From positions 682,001-746,000 of the forward strand of contig VNWV01000010.1 in the NCBI GenBank assembly GCA_009801085.1: a stretch of 64,000 nucleotides of DNA, written 5' to 3'. The stretch's first letter is position 1, and each line of letters starts with the position of its first letter. Positions 2,973 to 24,471 of this stretch are shown here, in pieces. Position numbers and translations under genes: made by a program. Below the pieces are notes generated by a model, which was not told the DNA's origin, searched no databases, and was given only the letters and a program-made list of their open reading frames with translations. Source of the DNA: Lasiodiplodia sp. COLG20. Lineage: Eukaryota > Ascomycota > Dothideomycetes > Botryosphaeriales > Botryosphaeriaceae.

Positions 2973-5315
2973 TTAGTGACTGGCATGTGTTCGGCGCCGT
3001 GGTACCCTTGAACTATTTAGACGCCCTCGTACTAACATTATAGCGGGATCACTGGGCGGGACCTTCGATCTACACGGTTCCTTGTCTACGTGGAGCCAGA
3101 GCTTGTCTGTACGCCTGAAGACTTCCCGACAATGTCGGCATATGAACACTCTGCCTGTTCCTGGTCCACATCCATAATTATCCTGGTGCCGATCAAGACT
3201 CCCCTTCTTTGCGAAGTCCATCCCGTGTTCAGAGCAAAAGAACGATGAACTGGAGTGTTTAGGAGTAATGTCGGTGGTCAGTTCATTGTCTGTTGCTGCC
3301 GTTGCTGCTATGCTTGCGGAATCTTCCATTCCTTCTGGCAGAGACTCGAATGCGGTTCCCAGTGAATCGTCCAGAAAAGGTGATGCTTGACCAGACTGAT
3401 CGCAACAAGAGTTTACAAGCCTCTCGAACTCCGCATCCGAAAGATCTTTGATCTCGCGAAAATATGGGAAAGATTCTAACTCCTCATTTTCGTATTCCGT
3501 TCTTAGAGTATCTTCGTCGTCTTCGAAGTTCAGTTCTGGCAGCCCTTCTAATTCTTTGCCATCTGTTCCGGAAGATGCCGTAGAACCCGAGCTGGTATGT
3601 GCTGAATCCTCCCCAAAATAGTCATTATTGAGAAAGTAACTTCCGTCGTTGCCGCCACTTTGAGAGCTACTGCTATCTTCAGTATCGTCTGATGGTGCCC
3701 ATGGTAAGGATCTCAATGAGAAAGAGTGGACATGCTCGGCAATGTGATCAAGAAGGCTCTTGGTATCGTCCGGGGCATCTTGTAAACAGATGGGACATGA
3801 CCGAACCTCGATGGGCATGGATCGTGAGCAAGCAGACAAGAATGTCGAAATCTGCTCTGCGGATATTCCATGGTGTTTCGTCTGCAGATGGTTGACGAAG
3901 ACGCTCTGCTCGTGAAATTCATTCCTATTGCGGCACACAAAACAAACCCAGTACTGGCCGCTCTTGTGTTCCTCTTTCATGTGTAGCATCCAAGTCTCAC
4001 GTGTGAGGTAGAAGTTCCATGGGTTTGGACAATCGTCGACGATACAAGTATACGGGAGTATGTCACCCATCAGATGCTTCCTTTATTGCTCCTCGTCAGT
4101 CAAATGTCAGAAGCCCCAAGGCCAGCTGTAGGATGCAAATAAACATACCTCCATTTGTTTCCCTTCGAGAAATATGCTGGTAGTGCTTGACAGCAACATG
4201 GACATTTGAAAATGTTTTGACTGGGCGTGATAGGCGGAGGTAGAGGATAGACAATTTTAGCGCCCGTGGACGAAAGGATAGTCTTGGAGAGTTGAGATGA
4301 TTCTTCCTTGGAAAGCTGAGGTGATTCTTCTTTGGGAATCTGAATAGGACTATCCACTGCGGATGCAACCGTAGCTGTCAAGGTATCTGGATGCCCTTCC
4401 GTATCACGCTGACTGGAGGCTTTCTTGATAGGTTTGATGAGATCGGGCTTTTGTGAATGAGGAACATGCTCATCAATCGAATCAGAATGATTATTGGCGT
4501 GTGTCTCTCTAATTTCAGCGAGCTTCTTCGAATGTCTTTGAGCATAGAGAAAGCGATTGCGGCGTCTCAAGTTCGCCTCTATCAGCCGTGATTGGATCGA
4601 GCTCAACGCATCAGCATTCAGCTGCAACATTTGCCTGCCCTCTTCAGAAGGCTTTGCTAGGATGATTAACTCGAGATGCTTTCTCAATACCCCGTGGTCG
4701 CTAGGGTCGAAGGAACTGTCCGCTTTTTGAAGCCTGGAATGAGACCCTGATTTGCGGATGGCAACAGTCAATCTGGAAATCTGATGTAAAGTCTTTCTCA
4801 CGTTTTCCCTATCTTCTGATACTTTTTCAAAGACCTCAAGTTGGTATTTTGATCGTTCTGTGTCACCTTTCATGGAAGATACTTTGTGATAGTGTATAGT
4901 GCTGAGCTTCAACGATGGATCTTCTTTTTGTCCGTGTCTTGATTCAAGTCCTTGGCTAGTTGTATTTGCAGCTTTCGGTTTACTGATGATCAATGCTATA
5001 GCTTGTATTAGATCTAGCGGTACGGTCCGTGAGAGAGATTATCAGCCCACCGTTCTGCTTGCACCGGACGATGAAGCCGTTAAGCATGCGGAGTAGATTT
5101 ACGGCGATTGATCTGATATCTGGTTCCAGGATAAGCCTCTGGTCAAGCGAAGCTCTCTCCTTTGCAGACGCGCCAGCACCCGCTGACCAGAGATTGAAAT
5201 CGGCCAACTGGTTTTCTGCCCACTCATTTTCCATAAGACATGGAATGTCCAGGCATGCTTCAAGAGATCTCCGGCAGGCCGCAGTGGCGTCAAATATGGC
5301 TGAGTGTGTAGCCAT
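2973..5315 (-). CDS. Long C2H2 zinc-finger protein (ZF1)
   Basis: Predicted nuclear or regulatory protein of a fungal multigene family; function unknown. Model: exons 5315-5051, 4995-4149 and 4080-2973, giving 739 residues. Introns are 5050-4996 (GTGGGC..TAG) and 4148-4081 (GTATGT..AAG); the second joins KGNKWR to KHLMGDILPYTC. The N-terminal ~90 residues form a helical domain (MATHSAIFDATAACRR) that I recognise from other fungal zinc-finger and NLR-like proteins. The middle is charged. From about residue 350 come a CPCC knuckle and three C2H2-like fingers, then an acidic Ser-rich stretch. Two C-terminal fingers follow, in the block ending FRRTDKLWLHVDKEPC. The first of these has C-x2-H where its paralogue at 18776 has C-x2-C. 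It is head-to-head with the S8 protease gene. Confidence 0.8.
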
Positions 5316-5618: not shown

Positions 5619-8586
5619 ATGTCGAAGCCACCTCTTCTCAGTCATCGAACCTGCCTGATCCAAGAAGCTCTCCCAGTCATCGGTAAAATAGCGACAGATC
5701 TGGGAGCCGATCATCTGGATTTCGAGTTGGGCGAATTTGGAAGGTTACTCTGTACGCTTTCCATAAAAGCTCCAGACTGTGATTTCTCTACAAGGGAAAA
5801 CAGTCTCGTCGAGGCAAAACTCGGACGCATCCTTGACCATGTTGAAAGAGCATGCACTGTGAGTTCTAGCGCTTTTTAAAAAAATGTAAGAGATAATCTA
5901 ATCGTGTTGGAAAAGTACCAAAGTTCAACAGAATACCCGACGTTGGAAAAAATCGCTTCTGCTAAGGCATCGCAAGAAGCCATGCCTATCCAGTCCACTT
6001 GCATTCCCGCCGAATCAGAGAAAAACATCAAATTGAGCTTGAAAAATTATACTTCGGAACGTCCCGACTCGTTCAGAACCTTGATTCAGCAGCTCCGCGA
6101 ATTTTTGACTGAAAGCGAAATTGGCCCAACAGATGATGCATCCCCAGAAGTTGCTGTAAAAAAGGAAATCGTGCCTGAATACCCATTCCATGTAAACCAG
6201 GTTCTTTACCGAGCTTTATACCCTCACCTGAGCTCTTGTTTCTGCAATACTGGCAAGCTACACGACGCAAGGCTTCGACTGATGCCTCAGGAGGACTTGG
6301 TGGGTGACCGCGTTTTGCAGTTTGCAATGCTTTTCTCTGCTGCTCCGACCATTATGTCCTCCCGCAGCTCTATTACAGAATGGAAGGAATCGGAGATCCT
6401 TGTTCCAATTAGGTATGTATCTGACTTTTCCAGAATTTGGCGGATAAAACGCCAATAAGTTAACGTACCATTACAATAGAAATGTTCATGGCAAAAACAA
6501 TGCAAAGTCTAGCAAACACGTTTCTTTCGATAAAGCCATTGCTGGAGCACCTCATACCAGTAACTTCCATGAGAATCCAGAAAAGATTTATCCAGGCGAT
6601 TTCTGCGAGCTTCTCAGCTTCAGAGCAACTTCTATGCTCTCTTTCACGATCGATTTCTATGCGTTGAAATCACTCCGTGGCCATGGAGTCCCGCAAATAA
6701 AGGTGGGGCCGAAAGACAGCTTGTCACTTTTCGATGTTTTGAAGACCCGACCAATGTCGAAGAGGGAGAAGTGCACCCTGGCTTACAAGGTGGCAAAATC
6801 GGTATGGCAGTACTACGGCTCCAGCTGGATGAACGCTCCCTGGACACATCATGATATCCACCTTCTGGAAGACCAAAGCTCTGGACTGCAAAGATCCGCC
6901 AAAGATCTCTCTTGCGAGCCATATCTTGCTGCGACTTTCCGCGAGTCCAATTCAGATATTCCTGAGGATTATGACGCGGAAAGTGCGACGCACCATTACC
7001 CTCCTCAGATCCCCGCACTGGCTATTCTTCTGATTGAGATTGCCAGAGGACAGCTGCTGGCACCGGCCAATGCCGATGGCCGATCGATCGGCTATGGTTG
7101 CTCAGGAATAGACTCCTATTTTATGTCAGCTTGGAGCTCTTCGAAGAATCTGGGCGAAATAGATATTCCTCAGTATCAAGAATCGGTGAAGAGGTGTCTC
7201 GACCTAGATCTCTTTGCCGAAGCATCGCTCATCCCAGGATTTGGGGAAGACCTGAACGATGAATTGCACAGGAGACGGGAAATATTGTATCGAAAAATTG
7301 TGTCCCCATTGAAGGAACTACTTGCGGGTTCCGGTTGGCTACCCGACCATAATATCAGACGAAAAGTGATCTCACAGACAGCAAAGCGATCAGCGTTCAC
7401 AGAATTGGACGCGAAACTGTCGCGGAATAGGGAGTCATGCCACACCTCATCGACAGAAGCCATGAAAGCTGCTCTGGATATTGTTGCAGATAGACAAGAG
7501 GCTCAGCCTCCTAGGAAACGGGTCAAGTGAGTAAGCCCGTATCCACCAAATAGCATCAGAAATTGACGAAGATACAGGTCAACACACAAGACGCCGGAGT
7601 CTGCGTGGTTGAAGCAAATGCATGAAATTGGCGCCACATGTCCTCATCGCGAACACTCACCAATCAAAATTGCCATCCTCGATACCGGCTGCAGTTTGGA
7701 AGACTTGGGACCAATATTCCATGAAAATGATCAAGAAGCACATATACGCAAGAATTGGAAGGATTGGGCGGGGACTTCGACAGAACCGGAAGATGAACAT
7801 GGCCACGGGACGGCAATTACAGCCGTCTTGTTGAGAATAGCCCAAAAGGCCGAAATATACGTTGGACGTGTGGCCAAAAATCCCAGGAGTCTTCAGAAGT
7901 CGGGAGAAAACGTAGCCAAGGTGAGCACAGTTCGGCAAAAGAGCGCGGGACGCATGAGTTGACTCATTATGCAGGCAATAATCTACGCAGCTGCGGTTTG
8001 GGACGTCGATCTAGTCTCACTATCTTTTGGGTTCCCATCAGAAATCGATTCCATCACGAATGCTATTCGGAAAGCCGAGATGGTCAAGAATGACTCAATT
8101 ATTTTCTTCGCCGCAGCCGCAAACGAAGGAGCCAATAGCTACGAAATGTTCCCTGCCTACTTAGATTCCGTCATTTCCATGCGCGGGACCGAAGAATCGG
8201 GTGCCTTTGTGCCTAAATTGAATCCTCCTCCTATTCGTACAAACTCCGAAAACTACTTGTTTGGCACTCTTGGTACGAACGTCCCTTGGGACTGGCCGGA
8301 CGAAGATCCGGAAAAGAAAATGACAGGCTGTTCCATTGCGGCTCCACTCGCCGCTGGAATTGCGGCACTAATACTACAATATGCTGCTTCTTGTCCCGAC
8401 CTAGACGAGAAGAAGCAAAGAATGATCAAGAGTCGGAGAGGTGTGATGCAGGTTTTCAAGAAAATCTCAGTGAATCAAGGAAATGGGCGTTTTTACATTG
8501 CACCTTGGCATTTCTTCACCGAACATCAGGACGACTGGCTCACAGTACTATTCGACGTCGTTCGAGATCTACCACGGTCTTTGTAA
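5619..8586 (+). CDS. DUF7580-like / subtilisin-like (peptidase S8) protein
   Basis: Predicted intracellular serine protease with an N-terminal NLR-like or DUF7580 region. Model: exons 5619-5858, 5916-6412, 6480-7526, 7578-7920 and 7975-8586, giving 912 residues with all phases consistent. The start at 5619 has A at -3; an in-frame ATG at 5586 would add 11 residues and lacks it. The region around residues 250-560 resembles DUF7580 (SLFDVLKTRPMS, ..VWQYYGSSWM, ..ILLIEIARG). The S8 domain follows with a full triad: D630 in AILDTG, H671 in HGHGT, and S829 in GCSIAAPLAAG. Oxyanion N759 lies in AAANEG. Residue 828 is Cys where GTS is usual. There is no signal peptide, which fits a cytosolic role. 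Its 3' end abuts the gasdermin-like gene tail-to-tail; subtilases of this kind cleave and activate fungal gasdermins. Confidence 0.85.
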
Positions 8587-8587
8587 T

Positions 8588-9436
8588 TCAGATTTCCATC
8601 GGCGCAATACAAATGCAGCTTTCATTCCCTTCGGTCACTTCAAAGGTGTTGGTATGTGACTTGCCAGCATCATCTTCTGTGAAATTATCCGCAGTCACAG
8701 TGCTTGATTCAACCTCCACATCCGATTCCTCCTCTTCCGAGGACTCAGCCCCAAGGAATGTAGCCTTGGACTGATAGTCGCTAGCTTCCAACCTTGGATG
8801 TCTCCATCCCTTGGGAACAATCTTCAACAACTGGTACGCGAAAACGATGTCGTTGCCCGAGCGGAAAGAATTTTTCTGGCTCGTCTCCTGCGACAGTCCA
8901 GAATCTGCTCCCACTGATATCTCCGCGATAACCGGCACGGACGTCCCGATGCTACCTGCACGCGATGAGGCGGCCTCCGTAGAAGCTGTGAAGCCCTCTG
9001 AAATCTTCACGCCAGTGATCATGTACACTGGCCTTGACCATACGCTGCCGTATCGCATGATGTTCCTCACCCTCGGCACGCTCGCCCTTTCCCGTAGCTC
9101 CTCCTCCGAGGGGTCGTTCTTGAAATACACTGTCCTAAGGGTACTCATGCTGTACTCTATGTTCGTGCTCTTCCCATGCTCTATCCCAATGTTTCCGCCG
9201 ACAACTTGCAGAAACTGTGCCCAGAGGCCCATACTGATCCCATGGCCTGCTCCTCGGCCGACAGTGTAGTCGTATTCGACGGCGCTTTCGATTTCGGGTG
9301 TTGGTTTATCCGGATCGGGCTTGGTGAGGACTTTGTGCGGCTTGAATGGATCGGCAATGATGTTACCCAGAGCAATGGGGCCGTCTGGACGGAAGGTGAA
9401 GTTTGGCGCCAGAAGGTATGTTTTCATGAGTGCCAT
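8588..9436 (-). CDS. Candidate fungal gasdermin-like pore-forming protein (HET-Q1/RCD-1 type)
   Basis: Single-exon gene of 282 residues without signal peptide. Fungal gasdermins are 250-300 residues long, with an N-terminal pore-forming domain and a short inhibitory tail removed by a clustered protease, often a subtilase. Visible here are an N-terminal block (TYLLAPNFTF, GPIALGNIIADPF), a mixed alpha/beta middle (PVYMITGVKISEGF near 136-149), and a hydrophobic strand NDIVFAYQLLKI near 195-206. Next come a basic KGWRHPR, a strongly acidic linker around 231-245, and a ~35-residue tail. The cut site would plausibly lie between about 210 and 255. The call rests on remembered family style, size, layout and the S8 neighbour, not on an alignment. 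Alternatively it is an uncharacterised fungal family. Confidence 0.6.
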   Translation of the reverse strand: MALMKTYLLAPNFTFRPDGPIALGNIIADPFKPHKVLTKPDPDKPTPEIESAVEYDYTVGRGAGHGISMGLWAQFLQVVGGNIGIEHGKSTNIEYSMSTLRTVYFKNDPSEEELRERASVPRVRNIMRYGSVWSRPVYMITGVKISEGFTASTEAASSRAGSIGTSVPVIAEISVGADSGLSQETSQKNSFRSGNDIVFAYQLLKIVPKGWRHPRLEASDYQSKATFLGAESSEEEESDVEVESSTVTADNFTEDDAGKSHTNTFEVTEGNESCICIAPMEI

Positions 9437-10582: not shown

Positions 10583-11494
10583 CTAGATCCGACGACGGTG
10601 CGTGCCCTTGGGATACTGCTCTCTTACCTTCACAACTGCCTGCTCCCTAGTAAGCCCCAGCTTCATGTAATGACCCTTGAGGCTGCATCGGCGCTTGAAT
10701 CTTTCTGTGCAGCCATAGTGGAGACGTGGGTTGCACTGGAACCGCCATTTCTCGCTTGGATTTCCACAAATCTCTTTCCGATGTCGATAAAGAGACGACT
10801 TGCGTGCAAACTTGCAGTGACAGGACAGGCACACAAAAGGGCTTTCGTTCCCCGATGTCGAGGCTCGGCTTGTTGGGGTATCTGGCGCTCCAGTAGCTGG
10901 CCTGGGCTTCCTTCCACTGATTCCTGGGGCTTTGAACTGAGAGAGCTTCTCTCCAGCAGGCTGTTCGCAGGAGCTCAAGTTGATGGGAGAGTACCGAGGC
11001 AGGTTTGTTGGTACGAGTCCTTCGCAACAGGGGTCGCCATCGGCACCAAGCAAGCCCTCCGATTCGAATGTCTTTTGTGAGCTAACGAGTTTCGACGTGT
11101 AGTATGGCCCGCTAAAAGAAATCCATTCGCGCATGAGGATGTGCGAGTCCGAGGTGGATGAACAGCCGGAGGATTGATCGATCGAGGGCGACCCCGGATG
11201 TACCAGAGCAACATCGGCCTTTTCGACCGGGCCGGGGATGCCCAGAGAGGCTTGACCAAGACTGGACAGCGCTGATAGATTCGAACTCCGGGGTACGAGG
11301 TCAGAAGAGGCCAGGCTGGACGACGAGGATGTCAGATCTACCGGAGGTCTAATCTTGTGTTGTGGGGTATCGAAAAACTCAGAAACTCACCCGGTATGGA
11401 CGTATTGATCATCTTGGAAATGAAGTTCTGGGGTAGAGCAGTACGGCCATCCACTTGGCATCAAAAAGGAATGATCCATGTTGGAAATCGACAT
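10583..11494 (-). CDS. Short C2H2 zinc-finger protein (ZF2)
   Basis: Model: exons 11494-11391 and 11348-10583 with a 42-nt intron (GTGAGT..TAG), giving 289 residues. An in-frame stop lies just 5' of the chosen ATG (MSISNMDHSF). The N-terminal two thirds are Ser/Pro-rich and low in complexity, like an activation region. The C-terminus has a finger FVCLSCHCKFARKSSL (C-x2-C-x12-H-x4-C), then an atypical C-x7-C finger ending FKRRCSLKGHYMKLG and a basic tail. It is paralogous to the gene at 15504 (same order CCEGL/CCGGL, finger, atypical finger). The paralogue lacks this intron. It may bind DNA; function unknown. Confidence 0.8.
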
Positions 11495-13649: not shown

Positions 13650-14110
13650 GCAGTGATTAGGATCATAAATTGAAACATTCCATTTATCAATGCTGAACAA
13701 AGGCAGCCCGGCAATGATTGGGAACCAGCCCCAACATTTATCTACCAGCGACTCTTTGTAAGTATCCACAGTCGTCCAATGATTTACCTGTTTCCAGTGC
13801 CGCAGAATCTTTAACTTACCCAGGTTCTTTCAGACGATCACTATGGCGGGATCATCGGGTTGAACCTGCGATCTGCAAGGTTCCCTCCCCAGACAGCCCC
13901 AAAACTTGTGTATGCATCTAAAGAGCACCCAACAAGACTGGCATGTCCACTACTCCTGTTCCTGACCTATATCCATAATTTTATTGGTGCCAATCAAGAC
14001 TACCCTTGTTTGCGAACTCCAATATATATATGGCAAGAAAAGGATGGACCGGAGCTATTTACAGCAGTTGTGCCTTCACAGGAAAATCAATCGTCACTTC
14101 AGAAAAACAG
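13650..14110 (-). pseudogene. Remnant of a long-type zinc-finger gene (psi-ZF)
   Basis: The 3' end and last two fingers of ZF1 are recognisable at the DNA level. Matches include 'caatgctgaacaaa', 'ccaacatttatctaccagcgac', 'actatggcgggatcatcggg', 'cctgttcctgac.tatatccataatt' and 'ggtgccaatcaagactacccttgtttgcgaa'. They fall in the same order as 2880-3230. The reading frame is broken by indels, and the encoded fingers and the whole 5' part are gone. It occupies the position that the intact paralogue at 18776 holds in the second duplication unit. Confidence 0.75.
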
Positions 14111-18775: not shown

Positions 18776-19533
18776 TCAGACGCTGCCGGTCTCGCGCTGA
18801 GCTGGACTAGCATCTTGAGAATGCTTTGCCAGATGATCGTTATATTTATCTGTCCGCTTGAAGGTCTCCTCACACTTCTCGCAAAGGATTAATTTGCCTG
18901 TTCCTGGCCCACAGTTGTAGCGGTCCTGGTGCCGAGCAAAACTGTATTTGTTCGCGAAGAATTTCTTGCATGGAGCGCAGTGGAAGAGTTGCTTGGATCG
19001 GCTTGGAATCTTTGTAACTCTAACCGGAAATCTGCCGTTTGCTGCCGCCGTGTGTATGAAATCTCCACAGTGAAGTTCTGCTTGGCCAGGCTGATCAACA
19101 ATCTGCTGTATCATCTCGTCGGAGCTGAAAGAACGGCTGCAACCCGATGATGGTGTAGAAACAGGAGTGCAAGAGCCCGTCGCGGATGATATCGAGATTG
19201 AGCTGCCAGAAGTCGAGGACGATGACACCGAGTTACTGGACGCTGGGCTGCCGAACACCGTGTCTCGGCAATCGGCGCAGCAAGACTGGACAAGGTACGA
19301 GAACTCCTCGTCAGACAGAAAGGCCACCGCGTGCGGTTCCAAATCGGAAGAGAAGGCTGTCTCGTGCGGTTCCAATTGTCCCGGCTCCTCGTGAATTTGA
19401 GGAAGAGAGGCCTCAAGGTCTTCCAACCAAGAATTCGGAGTCTGTGTTTAGAGCTTTAGTGTGTGTCGACGCTTCAAGAATGAATTCAACGAGTGCTCAC
19501 CTTCGTGCAGTCCATGCTGTCTGTCTTTGCCAT
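18776..19533 (-). CDS. Zinc-finger protein, truncated ZF1 paralogue (ZF4)
   Basis: Model: exons 19533-19501 (MAKTDSMDCTK) and 19441-18776, intron 59 nt (GTGAGC..CAG), 232 residues. It keeps the C-terminal half of ZF1: an acidic motif LSDEEFSYLVQSCC (ZF1 has LSDAEFERLVNSCC), a Ser-rich stretch, then two fingers. These are FHCAPCKKFFANKYSFARHQ..C (C-x2-C-x12-H-x5-C) and LCEKCEETFKRTDKYNDHLAKH (true C2H2), joined by CGPGTGK. The N-terminal helical domain and first finger array of ZF1 are absent, so a new short first exon was probably acquired. Function unknown. Confidence 0.75.
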
Positions 19534-22452
19534 GAGCAATATCATCAGTGAAGCTCATCATGGTTTTATACTGTTAGTATATGTGAAGATGGAAGGAAAG
19601 TATTCCACCATGCATTTCAGGTGATCGCCCACGATGCGGGAAAGAATCGTCTCCCGCATCTTTGGCATAAAATCTAACCCATTTTTGTTGTGGTTATCCT
19701 TGGTAAGGTGAGCATTGTCTGTGGAAAAAGTTGGTAGCAGAGCGTCCAATCGGGCGAGGTGGAGTTCCACCCGCATACACATTACCACTTCTCCCACATA
19801 GTCACCAACTTTTGCGACGCGGGATTACCACACGTGAGCTTCAAGGTATACCTCTGGCGATGCCACATCAGAGGGTGGCTCGCTAGTTGGGTTTTGGAGG
19901 GGCTCGGTGCTCCCGCCGATCGAGTCACGCCTGATGTTGAGTATGTGGGAGACACACAGCGCATGCGCTGCTGGATAGACGGTTGACAGATGAGTGACTT
20001 CGAAATCGACTTCGACGAAAGTTCCTTTAACGACTTGAAGCAGCATGGCACCCCCTATTCTTTGAGCACAGCAGCGCGACTCTCGACATATATGTCCAGC
20101 AAAGCCTCCTTAAGGCTACCGCGCTGAGTCGTTAATCTAAGGCCCCAGCCTGCATGCACTTTCAGTTTCTCGCATAGGCAACAGTGGCTGTGTTTTTGCG
20201 CTGCAAAAGCTGGTACGGCTGAGCAGATCTGTTCTCGCACAGCGGCGTCGGTTAATGCAAGCAGCAGCCTTGCAGCCCCATCGCGGCTCACCTCACTACC
20301 TTCAGAAATGGCACGCGAACATCCATAGAGCTCTCGACGCGCCCGAGGAGAATTTTCCCACTGCACATGAAACACGGCGGTTCCATACAATTGGCAAAAA
20401 CTTACCTTCAGCCGCATGTGTGGGAATCTCATCTGATATTCTCTCCCGCATCAACCCCGGTCGGTCCCGTCCAACAGAGATGCGGGATCAACGCACCACA
20501 TGCCACCATCTCCCGCAGACGCGTTTCGGAAACAGGGCGTTCCCCCCCTTCATCCCACAGATAGCTTAACCGGCATAGTTTTAGATCGGAGCACCTGCAT
20601 ACATTCCCGTTTCCCGCAGATTGGTCTTACCCAAAGCTACTTCGTCCTTTTCTTCAGAATATTGTGACGTACCATAACATCACCGAGGGGTTTTTTTTTT
20701 AAAAAAAAAAAGCCTCCTTAGCTGCCGAGACCACATAATGACATTGTGCGATTGGCTAATCTTGTACGGAAAATGGACAATTACCCATGGATTTTCTCCT
20801 CAGACAAAGCCTGTAGGCTTACCCATAATCAAAAAAGATCATCAAATGTGGTGTAGTAGTTGATAGTTCAAGGAAAAATAACACATGCATTACGGATTGC
20901 CTAAGGCTACGTTACATGTGAAAAAGCAAAAATGTAAAATCAGTGGTATCTTGATGCCCTTGCACGAATAGACAGGATGTCCCAATTTTGAGGGGGAAAA
21001 AACGGCGTCGCACCAATAAACACGTCCAAGAAAGGTACAGATGCAGAAGAGATGGTCAAATAAGAATAATAACATTCTGAAAGTCAAGGCCACCGTTCCA
21101 CTGATGTAGTAGCATCCAAGGTTGGAGAGCTCATGTTCCTTTCTTCGTGCAAAGAAGTTCGGAATGGCGCTTTGCCTTCATCTTCTCTCTCGTGAGCAGG
21201 ATATCCTGCCTTCGTCCCATCGAGGCTGTTGAAAAATTCTCCGAAGACAGTCTCTCGTCTGATGGGTTGCATTGCGCGGGTGTCGCAGTTGCATGGCGGT
21301 GAGATAAAGCGTTTCATGCTGTTGAATAGCATTCTGAAGTGTAAGAGGAGTGTACTGCACCAGAAAAGACGTTAGAAACGGCGCCAGAGAATGAAAATAG
21401 CTTGTTGCTTACTTTGGGTGCAAGGTATACATGTACCTTGACGTGACTGGTCTTCCTTCAGGAGAGGGGAGGAGGGCGGCTTATTCAGCGATGATGGAGG
21501 GACGTACTCTTGGCATTAATTCCATGGGACTCTATGAATTTAAATATCGCATGGCATCTGGACGGGAGAGGTATGTCGGTGAGAAGAAAGTCCCGTGTGC
21601 AGGCAGAAGGAGTGCTCACCAAGAATTTCTCAAGGCGCATGGAGGTGCACAATAGTTGCGCTCAGACAATTCATTTGATATCCCAACAACACCCACAGCG
21701 GCAGTGACCGAGAGCTCCAGTAAGCATTTGAAACAGGTAACGCGTGACGTTCGCGGAGAAGTGGGAAAAAACCCCCAGGCTCACATGCAAGCCCGATCGG
21801 AGTGGTGTTGTACGATTTTGCATGCAGGAGAATTGCTGCGTTGGCGGGAAAGACGTGGGAAACCTTGCGACCGGTGGTGCCAGCAGAGAGGGAAATAAAA
21901 AATAGCGGGGTAACGATGACCCATCATCTGCGGGAAACTTTTAGTCGGGTCAGGTTTCCGTTACCAATAAGCGTTCGCGTAGTGTTCGTGCATCGCCCTG
22001 CTCCCTGGACCAATGGCTGAATGCCCCCGCGCCCAACGAAAAAAATCCATTTTTCGTGCTGCTTGGCCAGAAAGCAAAGCGCATGGAAAGTTTCCCTTTG
22101 AATCATGGCATTCGAGTAGACCATCCGCCCTTGCAGTTGTATCCGCCTATGTGCATTCTTGGCTAGTGTTTCGCATCATGGTGTTCTTGGTGAAGGGTCA
22201 ACCCACCTAACGAGAACCATTGACCATGCTGCAATGAGCTCGCATGACGGGTAAGAGCGACGCGATATGTCGGTGAATCAGGCTTTGCAATGTGAGCGTT
22301 GAGTGGGTATCCGGTGCGCCGCAGGCCACGATACTCAAATCAGCCTCGTAATCCCTTCAGCCTTGTGGGCCGAAAGGCGAAGTTAAGCAGCACGATAGCC
22401 TGTCTAACATCTGCACACGTTCGAGCCACCTTCGTTCCCTCATAATTTCCCC
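19534..22452. other. Long gene-free stretch left of the HET gene
   Basis: No gene supported in 2.9 kb. It contains a T10/A11 run flanked by GAGGGG and GCCTCC near 20687-20718 (an imperfect inverted repeat). Several small overlapping frames carry no motifs. The right end should hold the HET promoter. Confidence 0.45.
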
Positions 22453-24471
22453 ATGGCTTCTACATTCAAATACACGCCGTTAAATCGGCAACGCAACCAG
22501 ATTCGCCTAATTGAGCTACAGCCTGGATCCTTTGGAGATTCTATTCTATGCACTGTACGCGTACAGTCTCTGGATGACAATCCAAGATACGAAGCACTGT
22601 CGTACGCATGGGGCGAATCCGGGAGAGAAACAAAGATTAAACTCGACGAGTGTCCATTTCCCGTCTCAACTAGTTTATTTTCTGCTCTCCAGAACATTCG
22701 ACACCAAAACAGCAGCCGGATTTTGTGGGTTGATGCACTGAGCATCGATCAGCACAACAACAGCGAGAAGGAATGGCAAGTAAGCATTATGGGCACAATC
22801 TTTAAGAAATGCTCCAAGGGCCTTTTGTGGGTCGGAGAAGAGTCCGAACCAGGTGATGCGTGGTGCCCTACCAAAAACCAAAACGACCCCAACCACTGCA
22901 CTGGCGCTCTTGCATTTGATGGTGCTTGCTCCTACAGCTCCGACCAGCATAATGAGGCCCAGACCTCATTGGGAAAGCACAAGCCAGTACGCAAGGACAG
23001 CAATCGTCGCCGGAGTTTCTCGTTTGGCTCTCAGGGCCTGGCCAAATGCAAACATTTGAATTGCAGATGGCACGGAAAAACGCCAAACATATCAGCATCC
23101 CTGAACCTGATGGAATCACTTCAGAAAGACAAGCACCTTAACGATATTTCGACGTTGAGCCATACATTTCTGCCTCGAGAGAAACTGGAATACGAAATCA
23201 TGGAACCACTCATAGCCCTTGGCGCTTTGATGAGTCGAAGTTGGTGGACACGCATGTGGACCGTTCAGGAAGCAGCCTTACCGCCTACCTCAACTCTATG
23301 CTGGGGCAAATCCACTTACTCATTAGAGAGCATGGCCACATCAGCCGAGAGGCTCTTTTTCCATTCGCAAAACTGCTGCTCTGCGTTCTTTGCCAGTCTG
23401 ATCCAAAGGCTGGACAAGCTATCGTGCGATGAGGCGACAGTGAACGCCCTATTCAACTTCCAGAAACACGTCCACACCTTGGAGTTGACACGAAGATGGA
23501 TACAAAAACCCGACGTTAATATCAACCTCATGGATTGTCTCTACAGTTTCCATAATCGAAAGTCAAAGCATCCTCGAGATAAGATATTTGCGTGTCTGGG
23601 CCTTTCCCCTTCGAGATTCGGACTCACGGCGGATTACGAAATCAACGAGCAACAGTTGTATAAAGACATCAGTCTCCATCTGCTGCGCTCATGCCCGGAT
23701 CGGTCACTCTCAGTTCTGTGGCGTGAATCCGAGCCTAACGATCTACTTCCTTCATGGGTCAAGGAATTCGACAGAGAGACAACGGCACTCAATCGACGTG
23801 CTCGGAGTGAGCATTACAATGCATCCAACGGTGGAGCAATTCACCCTGTAGACTGCACCAATGGTGTGCTCTCTTTTCTCGGGACAAAGGTAGACGTCCT
23901 CAGTGACGTAGCGCAATGTGCTCACTCCGCTTCTACGTATTCCGGATACCAGTTCTCGGCTTTCCGCGAATGGGCCCAGTTCCTCAAGGCTAACGAAAGC
24001 CAACTCAATTACGGTGACGGTTCTACTTGGCTCGATGTCTTTGCGAAAGCTCTGGGCGGAGATGTGGACAGATTACGTCCGGATCATTCCGGCCTCAGTG
24101 AAGAGAAGCTGCACGATTTTGTCCAGTCATTGACAAAGAAAAAGCCAAAAAATGACCTCATAGAGTCTTCATTGGCGCAGGAGTTGAATACTTCAGCTGC
24201 AGAGAGGAAAATGTTCACAACGAAACAGGGGCGCATCGGCTTGGGGCCGAGATGGATGCAACCAGGGGATGAGGTATGGATTCTCTCTGGAGGCAGTGTC
24301 CCATTTGTATTACGGCCTTTGCCAAGTCAAAATTCTGAAGAAGACGGTGTGGAGCAATCAAATTCCCAGAAACATCACGTAGTCATTGGAGATTGCTACG
24401 TTCAGGGTATCATGTTCGGTGAGGCAGTATCTGCAACAACACCTCTTTACCAACACGTGTTCCTTAAGTAG
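22453..24471 (+). CDS. HET-domain (heterokaryon incompatibility) protein
   Basis: Single-exon gene of 672 residues. HET domains (TIR-like fold) trigger cell death after fusion of unlike fungal hyphae. The three conserved blocks are in order: YEALSYAWGE (from residue 46), ILWVDALSIDQ (about 90-100) with KEWQVSIMGTIFKKC and LLWVGEE, and MSRSWWTRMWTVQEA (about 265-275). A Cys/His-containing insert separates blocks 2 and 3. The C-terminal ~400 residues lack NACHT, WD or ankyrin repeats and look like the usual uncharacterised HET tail. The GDEVWIL/GGSVPFVLRP block and a final GDCYVQGIMFGEA are typical of the family. It lies at the right edge of the accessory island. Confidence 0.93.
   Translation: MASTFKYTPLNRQRNQIRLIELQPGSFGDSILCTVRVQSLDDNPRYEALSYAWGESGRETKIKLDECPFPVSTSLFSALQNIRHQNSSRILWVDALSIDQHNNSEKEWQVSIMGTIFKKCSKGLLWVGEESEPGDAWCPTKNQNDPNHCTGALAFDGACSYSSDQHNEAQTSLGKHKPVRKDSNRRRSFSFGSQGLAKCKHLNCRWHGKTPNISASLNLMESLQKDKHLNDISTLSHTFLPREKLEYEIMEPLIALGALMSRSWWTRMWTVQEAALPPTSTLCWGKSTYSLESMATSAERLFFHSQNCCSAFFASLIQRLDKLSCDEATVNALFNFQKHVHTLELTRRWIQKPDVNINLMDCLYSFHNRKSKHPRDKIFACLGLSPSRFGLTADYEINEQQLYKDISLHLLRSCPDRSLSVLWRESEPNDLLPSWVKEFDRETTALNRRARSEHYNASNGGAIHPVDCTNGVLSFLGTKVDVLSDVAQCAHSASTYSGYQFSAFREWAQFLKANESQLNYGDGSTWLDVFAKALGGDVDRLRPDHSGLSEEKLHDFVQSLTKKKPKNDLIESSLAQELNTSAAERKMFTTKQGRIGLGPRWMQPGDEVWILSGGSVPFVLRPLPSQNSEEDGVEQSNSQKHHVVIGDCYVQGIMFGEAVSATTPLYQHVFLK

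Follow-up and report, generated by a model that had tools for sequence, protein, structure and literature searches.

Does the convergent gene pair at positions 5,619 to 9,436 of a 64,000-nucleotide stretch of the Lasiodiplodia sp. COLG20 genome (contig VNWV01000010.1; the whole stretch is called the window below) encode a protease that kills the cell by switching on a neighboring gasdermin? The original prediction had described a two-gene cell-death module, a gasdermin-like pore-former and an NLR-like subtilase, comparable to HET-Q1/HET-Q2 of Podospora anserina. The gasdermin, its S8 partner, the convergent unit and the likeness to HET-Q1/HET-Q2 are all borne out, but "NLR-like" is not, and a zinc-finger gene lying head-to-head with the protease gene had been missed. 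It is likely that the locus holds a fungal gasdermin and its dedicated S8 protease within a three-gene unit (zinc-finger gene on the minus strand, DUF7580-S8 gene on the plus strand, gasdermin gene on the minus strand) serving protease-triggered, pore-mediated death. This is directly supported by the predicted gasdermin fold together with the sequence, by a complete protease triad, by gene anatomy and by recurrence of the unit in the genome. By analogy with HET-Q1/HET-Q2, whose proteolytic activation is the model here, the neighboring protease probably switches the gasdermin on.

By fold prediction and sequence, the small protein is a fungal gasdermin. Its predicted structure contains the gasdermin N-domain fold, with RCD-1 as the closest fold, which passes the first of the two refutation tests set by the original prediction. 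Model and alignment both show the beta-rich N domain, the acidic linker and the short tail proposed earlier. A profile of 84 sequences matched RCD-1 (E 2e-13) and the HET-Q1 entry 9uv9 (E 3e-6), and the single sequence matched RCD-1-2 (E 1.5e-4) and the bGSDM model (E 4e-8). The protein has 180 homologues at E <= 1e-3, and the details given here refer to the best 120 of them; close homologues share its start (MALxKTYLLAPN), and the nearest named gasdermin relatives among the matches listed are from Sarea resinae and Botryosphaeriaceae (~49-51%). Against Pfam, the protein gave no family at E <= 1, though other profile routes match gasdermins, and the gasdermin family is absent from the 16 Pfam families matched by any of the 84 sequences at E <= 0.1; fungal gasdermins are not defined by matching one of the gasdermin profiles of Pfam, such as PF04598. 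Residues 229-247 and 255-257, the acidic stretch, fall below 50 in the predicted local distance difference test (pLDDT), and a beta-hairpin follows, an anatomy consistent with a short C-terminal tail that is predicted to be removable. Among the 81 alignment rows with a residue there, 66 carry D or N at position 251, and at position 252 leucine occurs in 59, phenylalanine in 13 and isoleucine in 5; Cys276 of the tail is found in 60 of the 77 rows that cover it. F252, 30 residues before the C-terminus, would be the likeliest cleavage position, judged from this conservation and from HET-Q1.

The adjoining gene encodes a full-triad S8 protease, as had been proposed. Pfam assigns residues 176-527 to DUF7580 (E 4e-23), in agreement with the DUF7580-like N-terminus noted before, and residues 624-848 to Peptidase_S8 (PF00082, E 1e-15; E 1.3e-15 in the whole-genome search). 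D630, H671 (HGHGT) and S829 (GCSIAAP) complete the triad, their roles being assigned by motif and presumably those general to S8 proteases. No hydrophobic signal is obvious by eye at the N-terminus, in line with the claimed lack of a secretion signal, the introns are GT-AG and the reading frames of the window copy are open. Residues 13-178 share homology with the N-terminal parts of DUF7580 proteins from the Orbilia group (best 35% identity, E 6e-20), and the P0130 model is most confident in a helical bundle, part of the basis for the N-terminal helical region in Table 1. A full-length search gave at least one homologue and a region search at least 11, all from nematode-trapping relatives of Orbilia, with PNP_UDP_1 in 10 of the 11.

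The extra region of the protease is thus present as predicted, made up of the helical part and DUF7580, but reading it as an NLR is not supported: at E <= 1, Pfam recognizes DUF7580 and Peptidase_S8 but no NACHT, NB-ARC or other nucleotide-binding NLR domain and no repeats. DUF7580 is probably kinase-like. In structure comparisons, made as VIA-align second looks, all 50 matches listed for a low-confidence model of a DUF7580 relative were protein kinases. By eye, most alignment rows covering that part show an H-x-D-I-like stretch and a DFG motif was not seen, a pattern that suggests a pseudokinase. An hhalign comparison of the DUF7580 profile with two kinases of this genome was not significant (probability 0.3%), protease exon 3 had no match among PDB sequences at E <= 5, and nothing on DUF7580 was found in the open-licence literature searched.

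The two window genes lie tail-to-tail where they had been placed, their stop codons 1 bp apart, and similar pairs recur. The genome (G000, 43.5 Mb in 88 contigs), the only one compared at the DNA level, contains seven gasdermin-like matches, from one single-protein search, and 25 S8 matches. Four of the seven lie less than 5 kb from an S8 match (random placement, P ~4e-8, or 3e-4 if the three paralogous pairs are counted once), more than chance would give. Three of these four pairs, in the window and at loci L016 (contig C1, 3.70 Mb) and L017 (C1, 3.71 Mb), have a common arrangement. The L016 and L017 gasdermins are 46-50% identical to that of the window and the proteases 30-49% over aligned pieces, and the gasdermin and protease stops are 2 bp apart at L016 and 109 bp at L017. 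Their fitted protease models retain the triad, and each contains four introns in matching positions, an agreement that is partly by construction because search zones were placed around frame breaks and models were fitted to similarity. The fourth pair (L019) consists of a diverged gasdermin and, 3.4 kb away in divergent orientation and beyond another frame, an S8 frame; a TPR-like frame scoring below the Pfam cut-off precedes the latter. At the remaining 21 S8 loci, scanned with 1.5 kb flanks for L001-L008 and as stretches of up to 10 kb for L022-L034, the gasdermin profile had no hit at E <= 0.5.

L016 and L017 form two complete modules in tandem (C1:3.698-3.718 Mb), each also next to a protein-kinase frame, and a truncated third sensor fragment is present at L017:8639-9409 (N-terminal match E 3e-4, the rest by eye). 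A kinase gene as a fourth conserved member was dropped: such frames adjoin L016 and L017, and the corresponding stretch of the window, one frame of which is a SLAC1-type transporter, holds no kinase recognizable by eye among frames of at least 110 amino acids. At L018 (L018:1844-5203, C1:0.457-0.460 Mb), a diverged gasdermin-like gene, its frame broken by a stop or an unrecognized intron, lies beside a HET-domain frame (E 7e-27), not a protease. The L020 match is partial, and L021 (L021:3679-4960, C34:2.475 Mb) is a relic in which the beginning of a gasdermin (35-50 residues) is located ~60 bp upstream of a piece of the zinc-finger gene, with no S8 match and no protease found. CHAT proteases were rejected as partners of the unpaired gasdermins, none of the seven gasdermin matches being within 20 kb of the five CHAT matches.

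The unit more likely comprises three genes than the two originally proposed, because a zinc-finger gene accompanies DUF7580 across the genome. Related zinc-finger genes occupy the same position and orientation at L016, L017, L036 and L037, and the start-to-start distance in the five loci examined is 231-335 bp between likely in-frame ATGs (the second ATG at L036, where the first would give 114 bp). Searching with the largest zinc-finger frame, for which 22 candidates were scored, gave at least 20 matches (E 2e-260 to 2e-4). A zinc-finger match lies 2.0-3.3 kb from 15 of the 20 DUF7580 matches, divergently in all 15; random placement predicts 0.11 such pairs, a figure that would rise if the family exceeds the 20 matches seen. 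Pfam matches of the zinc-finger frames were below curated cut-offs only (zf-Di19 in the window, zf-C2H2_4 at L017), and the C2H2 label otherwise follows motifs seen by eye; P0001, a protein from another source that shares the tail, carries precomputed C2H2 families. P0001 is 83% identical over gasdermin residues 1-210 and then continues into a tail homologous to the window zinc-finger gene (50%). It may be a prediction spliced across the protease, or reflect a deletion, and either would imply the same gene order. The co-occurrence expected by the original prediction is seen in this genome at two further loci, which are diverged paralogues, and related genomes are covered through P0001 only. 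Pairing of zinc fingers with fungal gasdermin clusters or heterokaryon incompatibility, and a link of pseudokinase, subtilisin and gasdermin, were not described among the matches listed in the open-licence literature searched. The window also holds other sequences akin to the zinc-finger portion of the gene at 2973-5315 (Table 1).

Table 1. Features of the locus and its surroundings, in window positions
Feature	Position	Strand	Details
Zinc-finger gene	2973..5315	-	Head-to-head with protease gene; open reading frames 5330-4983, 5038-4103, 4082-2976; C2H2 type by motif
Intergenic region between start codons	5316..5618	.	303 bp; candidate bidirectional promoter
DUF7580-S8 protease gene	5619..8586	+	ATG 5619; 912 amino acids, 5 exons (gene model)
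Protease exons	5619-5858, 5916-6412, 6480-7526, 7578-7920, 7975-8586
Protease N-terminal helical region	5619..6140	+	~Residues 1-155; contains intron 5859-5915
DUF7580 domain	6201..7323	+	Residues 176-527; split by intron 6413-6479; probably kinase-like
Peptidase_S8 domain	7663..8391	+	Residues 624-848; split by intron 7921-7974; D630/H671/S829
Fungal gasdermin gene	8588..9436	-	One exon, 282 amino acids
Gasdermin parts			N domain ~4-228; acidic linker 229-246; A-T-x-x-D/N-L/F motif 247-252; C-terminal beta-hairpin tail 262-279
Zinc-finger-related sequence	10586-11386	-
Zinc-finger-related sequences	13794-13952 and 18821-19054	-
HET-domain gene	22408-24468	+	PF06985, E 1e-24; 13 kb from the module

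Alternatively, the unit could be one of two genes, the zinc-finger gene being a transcriptional regulator or a promoter-sharing hitchhiker with no part in sensing or killing. This has perhaps one chance in three: the short shared upstream regions would suit co-regulation, five DUF7580 matches out of 20 lack the zinc-finger gene (the four lowest-scoring ones and C1:3.04 Mb), and DUF7580 is absent at five of the 20 zinc-finger matches (the L021 relic, two further sequences in the neighborhood of the window, C88:0.68 Mb and C1:6.43 Mb). The pair is nevertheless kept at 15 loci, although the other 14 paired zinc-finger genes are only 23-47% identical to that of the window over the matched part, and its persistence despite divergence argues against hitchhiking; co-regulation alone could explain the pair.

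Among the DUF7580 matches, the three with S8 are exactly those with a detected gasdermin, and none of the other 17 has any of the seven gasdermin matches within 10 kb, L036 alone having also been scanned with the profile. Outputs at non-S8 loci were read at two of the 17, L036 and L037. At L036:2733-5282 (C12:1.845 Mb), DUF7580 and PNP_UDP_1 share one 850-amino-acid frame, paired with a zinc-finger gene, and the 6.5 kb covered there (~1.2 kb of it downstream) contained no gasdermin match up to E 1. According to PMC12881547 (cited throughout from excerpts), PNP_UDP domains serve as immune modules that hydrolyse ATP. The N-terminus at L037 resembles a membrane-acting helical domain by eye, without support from Pfam. 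Since the outputs are swapped (S8 plus gasdermin versus PNP_UDP), the zinc-finger/DUF7580 pair is read as the common sensing part. Tentatively, and with somewhat less than even confidence, zinc-finger and divergent DUF7580 (kinase-like) genes could be proposed as the two members of a modular immune receptor pair in fungi, which has multiplied in this genome by duplication and in which the executioner can be exchanged: an S8 protease firing a convergent gasdermin, a PNP_UDP domain fused where the protease would be, or a membrane-acting helical domain at the N-terminus. On this view, the gasdermin unit may be one output of a general system not found described in the literature searched.

The stimuli that activate the sensors of fungal death pathways are regarded as a major open question (PMC12881547). 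Here one genome combines the sensor part with the same kind of partner gene at 15 loci, and the outputs differ. This provides a candidate for an upstream partner of a gasdermin protease, and the exchange of S8 for PNP_UDP on a related sensor amounts to a natural swap. The zinc-finger/DUF7580 pairing also offers a genomic signature for finding more such systems, and if DUF7580 is a pseudokinase, a kinase-like sensor would be joined in one polypeptide to the protease that fires the gasdermin.

In the proposed mechanism, the gasdermin would be kept inactive at rest through its short C-terminal tail, while the helical N-terminus and the kinase-like DUF7580 part of the protease would hold the protease in check. 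Once a trigger arrives, perhaps by way of the zinc-finger partner, the protease would be freed and would cleave the gasdermin within its acidic linker, with the conserved D/N-L/F motif (F252 in this protein) or its immediate surroundings as the most probable site. Released from the tail, the N domain could then build pores, leading to death of the cell or hyphal compartment.

Several points weigh against the activation of this gasdermin by a dedicated protease in a three-gene unit. Three of the seven gasdermin matches (L018, L020 and the relic L021) have no S8 match within 10 kb, and the three DUF7580-S8-gasdermin units, being paralogues, are not independent. Diverged gasdermins near other DUF7580 genes could have escaped the single-protein genome search. 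The searches for protease homologues yielded no neighbor-gene evidence, and co-occurrence in other species is seen through P0001 alone, with the caveat of mis-splicing or deletion given above. The candidate cleavage motif comes from the alignment alone, and its conservation could serve folding of the tail.

The locus could also be an allorecognition (het) locus, at which polymorphic alleles of the pair trigger incompatibility in the manner of HET-Q1/HET-Q2 rather than defence against parasites. We consider this doubtful, at about one chance in four: both fungal gasdermin systems in the review excerpts act in allorecognition (PMC12881547), and copies and relics in the genome suggest birth-and-death turnover. 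However, het-Q1 and het-Q2 are idiomorphs, different genes at one locus (PMC12881547), whereas both genes are intact in cis here, so that a sensor-effector unit fits better. Separately, a HET-domain gene in the window (Table 1) points to possible local clustering of incompatibility-type genes. An RCD-1-like mode, in which an allelic or paralogous gasdermin activates this one without cleavage and the protease has another job, is improbable: it would draw on the two paralogous gasdermins of the genome and on the closeness of the fold to RCD-1, which acts without cleavage (PMC12881547), but each of the three gasdermins adjoins its own protease gene with an intact triad, and a conserved tail extends the window protein past its N domain. 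A decayed or silent locus is very unlikely: relics do exist in the genome (L021 and L017:8639-9409), but in the window the frames are open, the introns are GT-AG, the triad is complete and the tail is conserved.

Compared with known systems, the likeness to a protease-activated fungal gasdermin is closest in HET-Q1/HET-Q2, which shares gasdermin length (278 versus 282 amino acids here), a short C-terminal tail and an S8 partner. HET-Q1 is cut after F238 with loss of 40 residues (PMC10989679, excerpts), a position comparable to the conserved L/F in the linker here. In contrast, HET-Q2 has 388 amino acids (PMC10989679) against 912 with a DUF7580 part, and its idiomorphic arrangement differs from the intact cis pair with a zinc-finger gene alongside. 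The Q2L-gasdermin two-gene clusters (Clave et al. 2022, via reviews) likewise place a gasdermin beside a multidomain S8 protease and are given as the commonest class, with ~63% of fungal gasdermins (PMC10197012, excerpts). Q2L architectures named in the review excerpts are WD40, ANK, TPR, NLR and "kinase-like", compared with a DUF7580 part here, and "zinc finger" was not found in the fungal gasdermin reviews searched. RCD-1-1/RCD-1-2 of Neurospora crassa (257 and 244 amino acids) are activated by the counterpart allele, without cleavage; the protein here is longer in its tail and has a protease neighbor. Bacterial defence systems also have a gasdermin adjoining a protease gene, and the protein here matches the bGSDM model, but the present locus is eukaryotic and its protease gene has introns. 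The order of helical bundle and kinase-like domain suggested by the models for the sensor part recalls MLKL (helical bundle plus pseudokinase), a likeness without demonstrated sequence relation, and here an S8 protease follows. Altogether, the locus adds a well-supported member to the gasdermin-S8 clusters already known, and what is new in it are the sensor architecture and the third gene.
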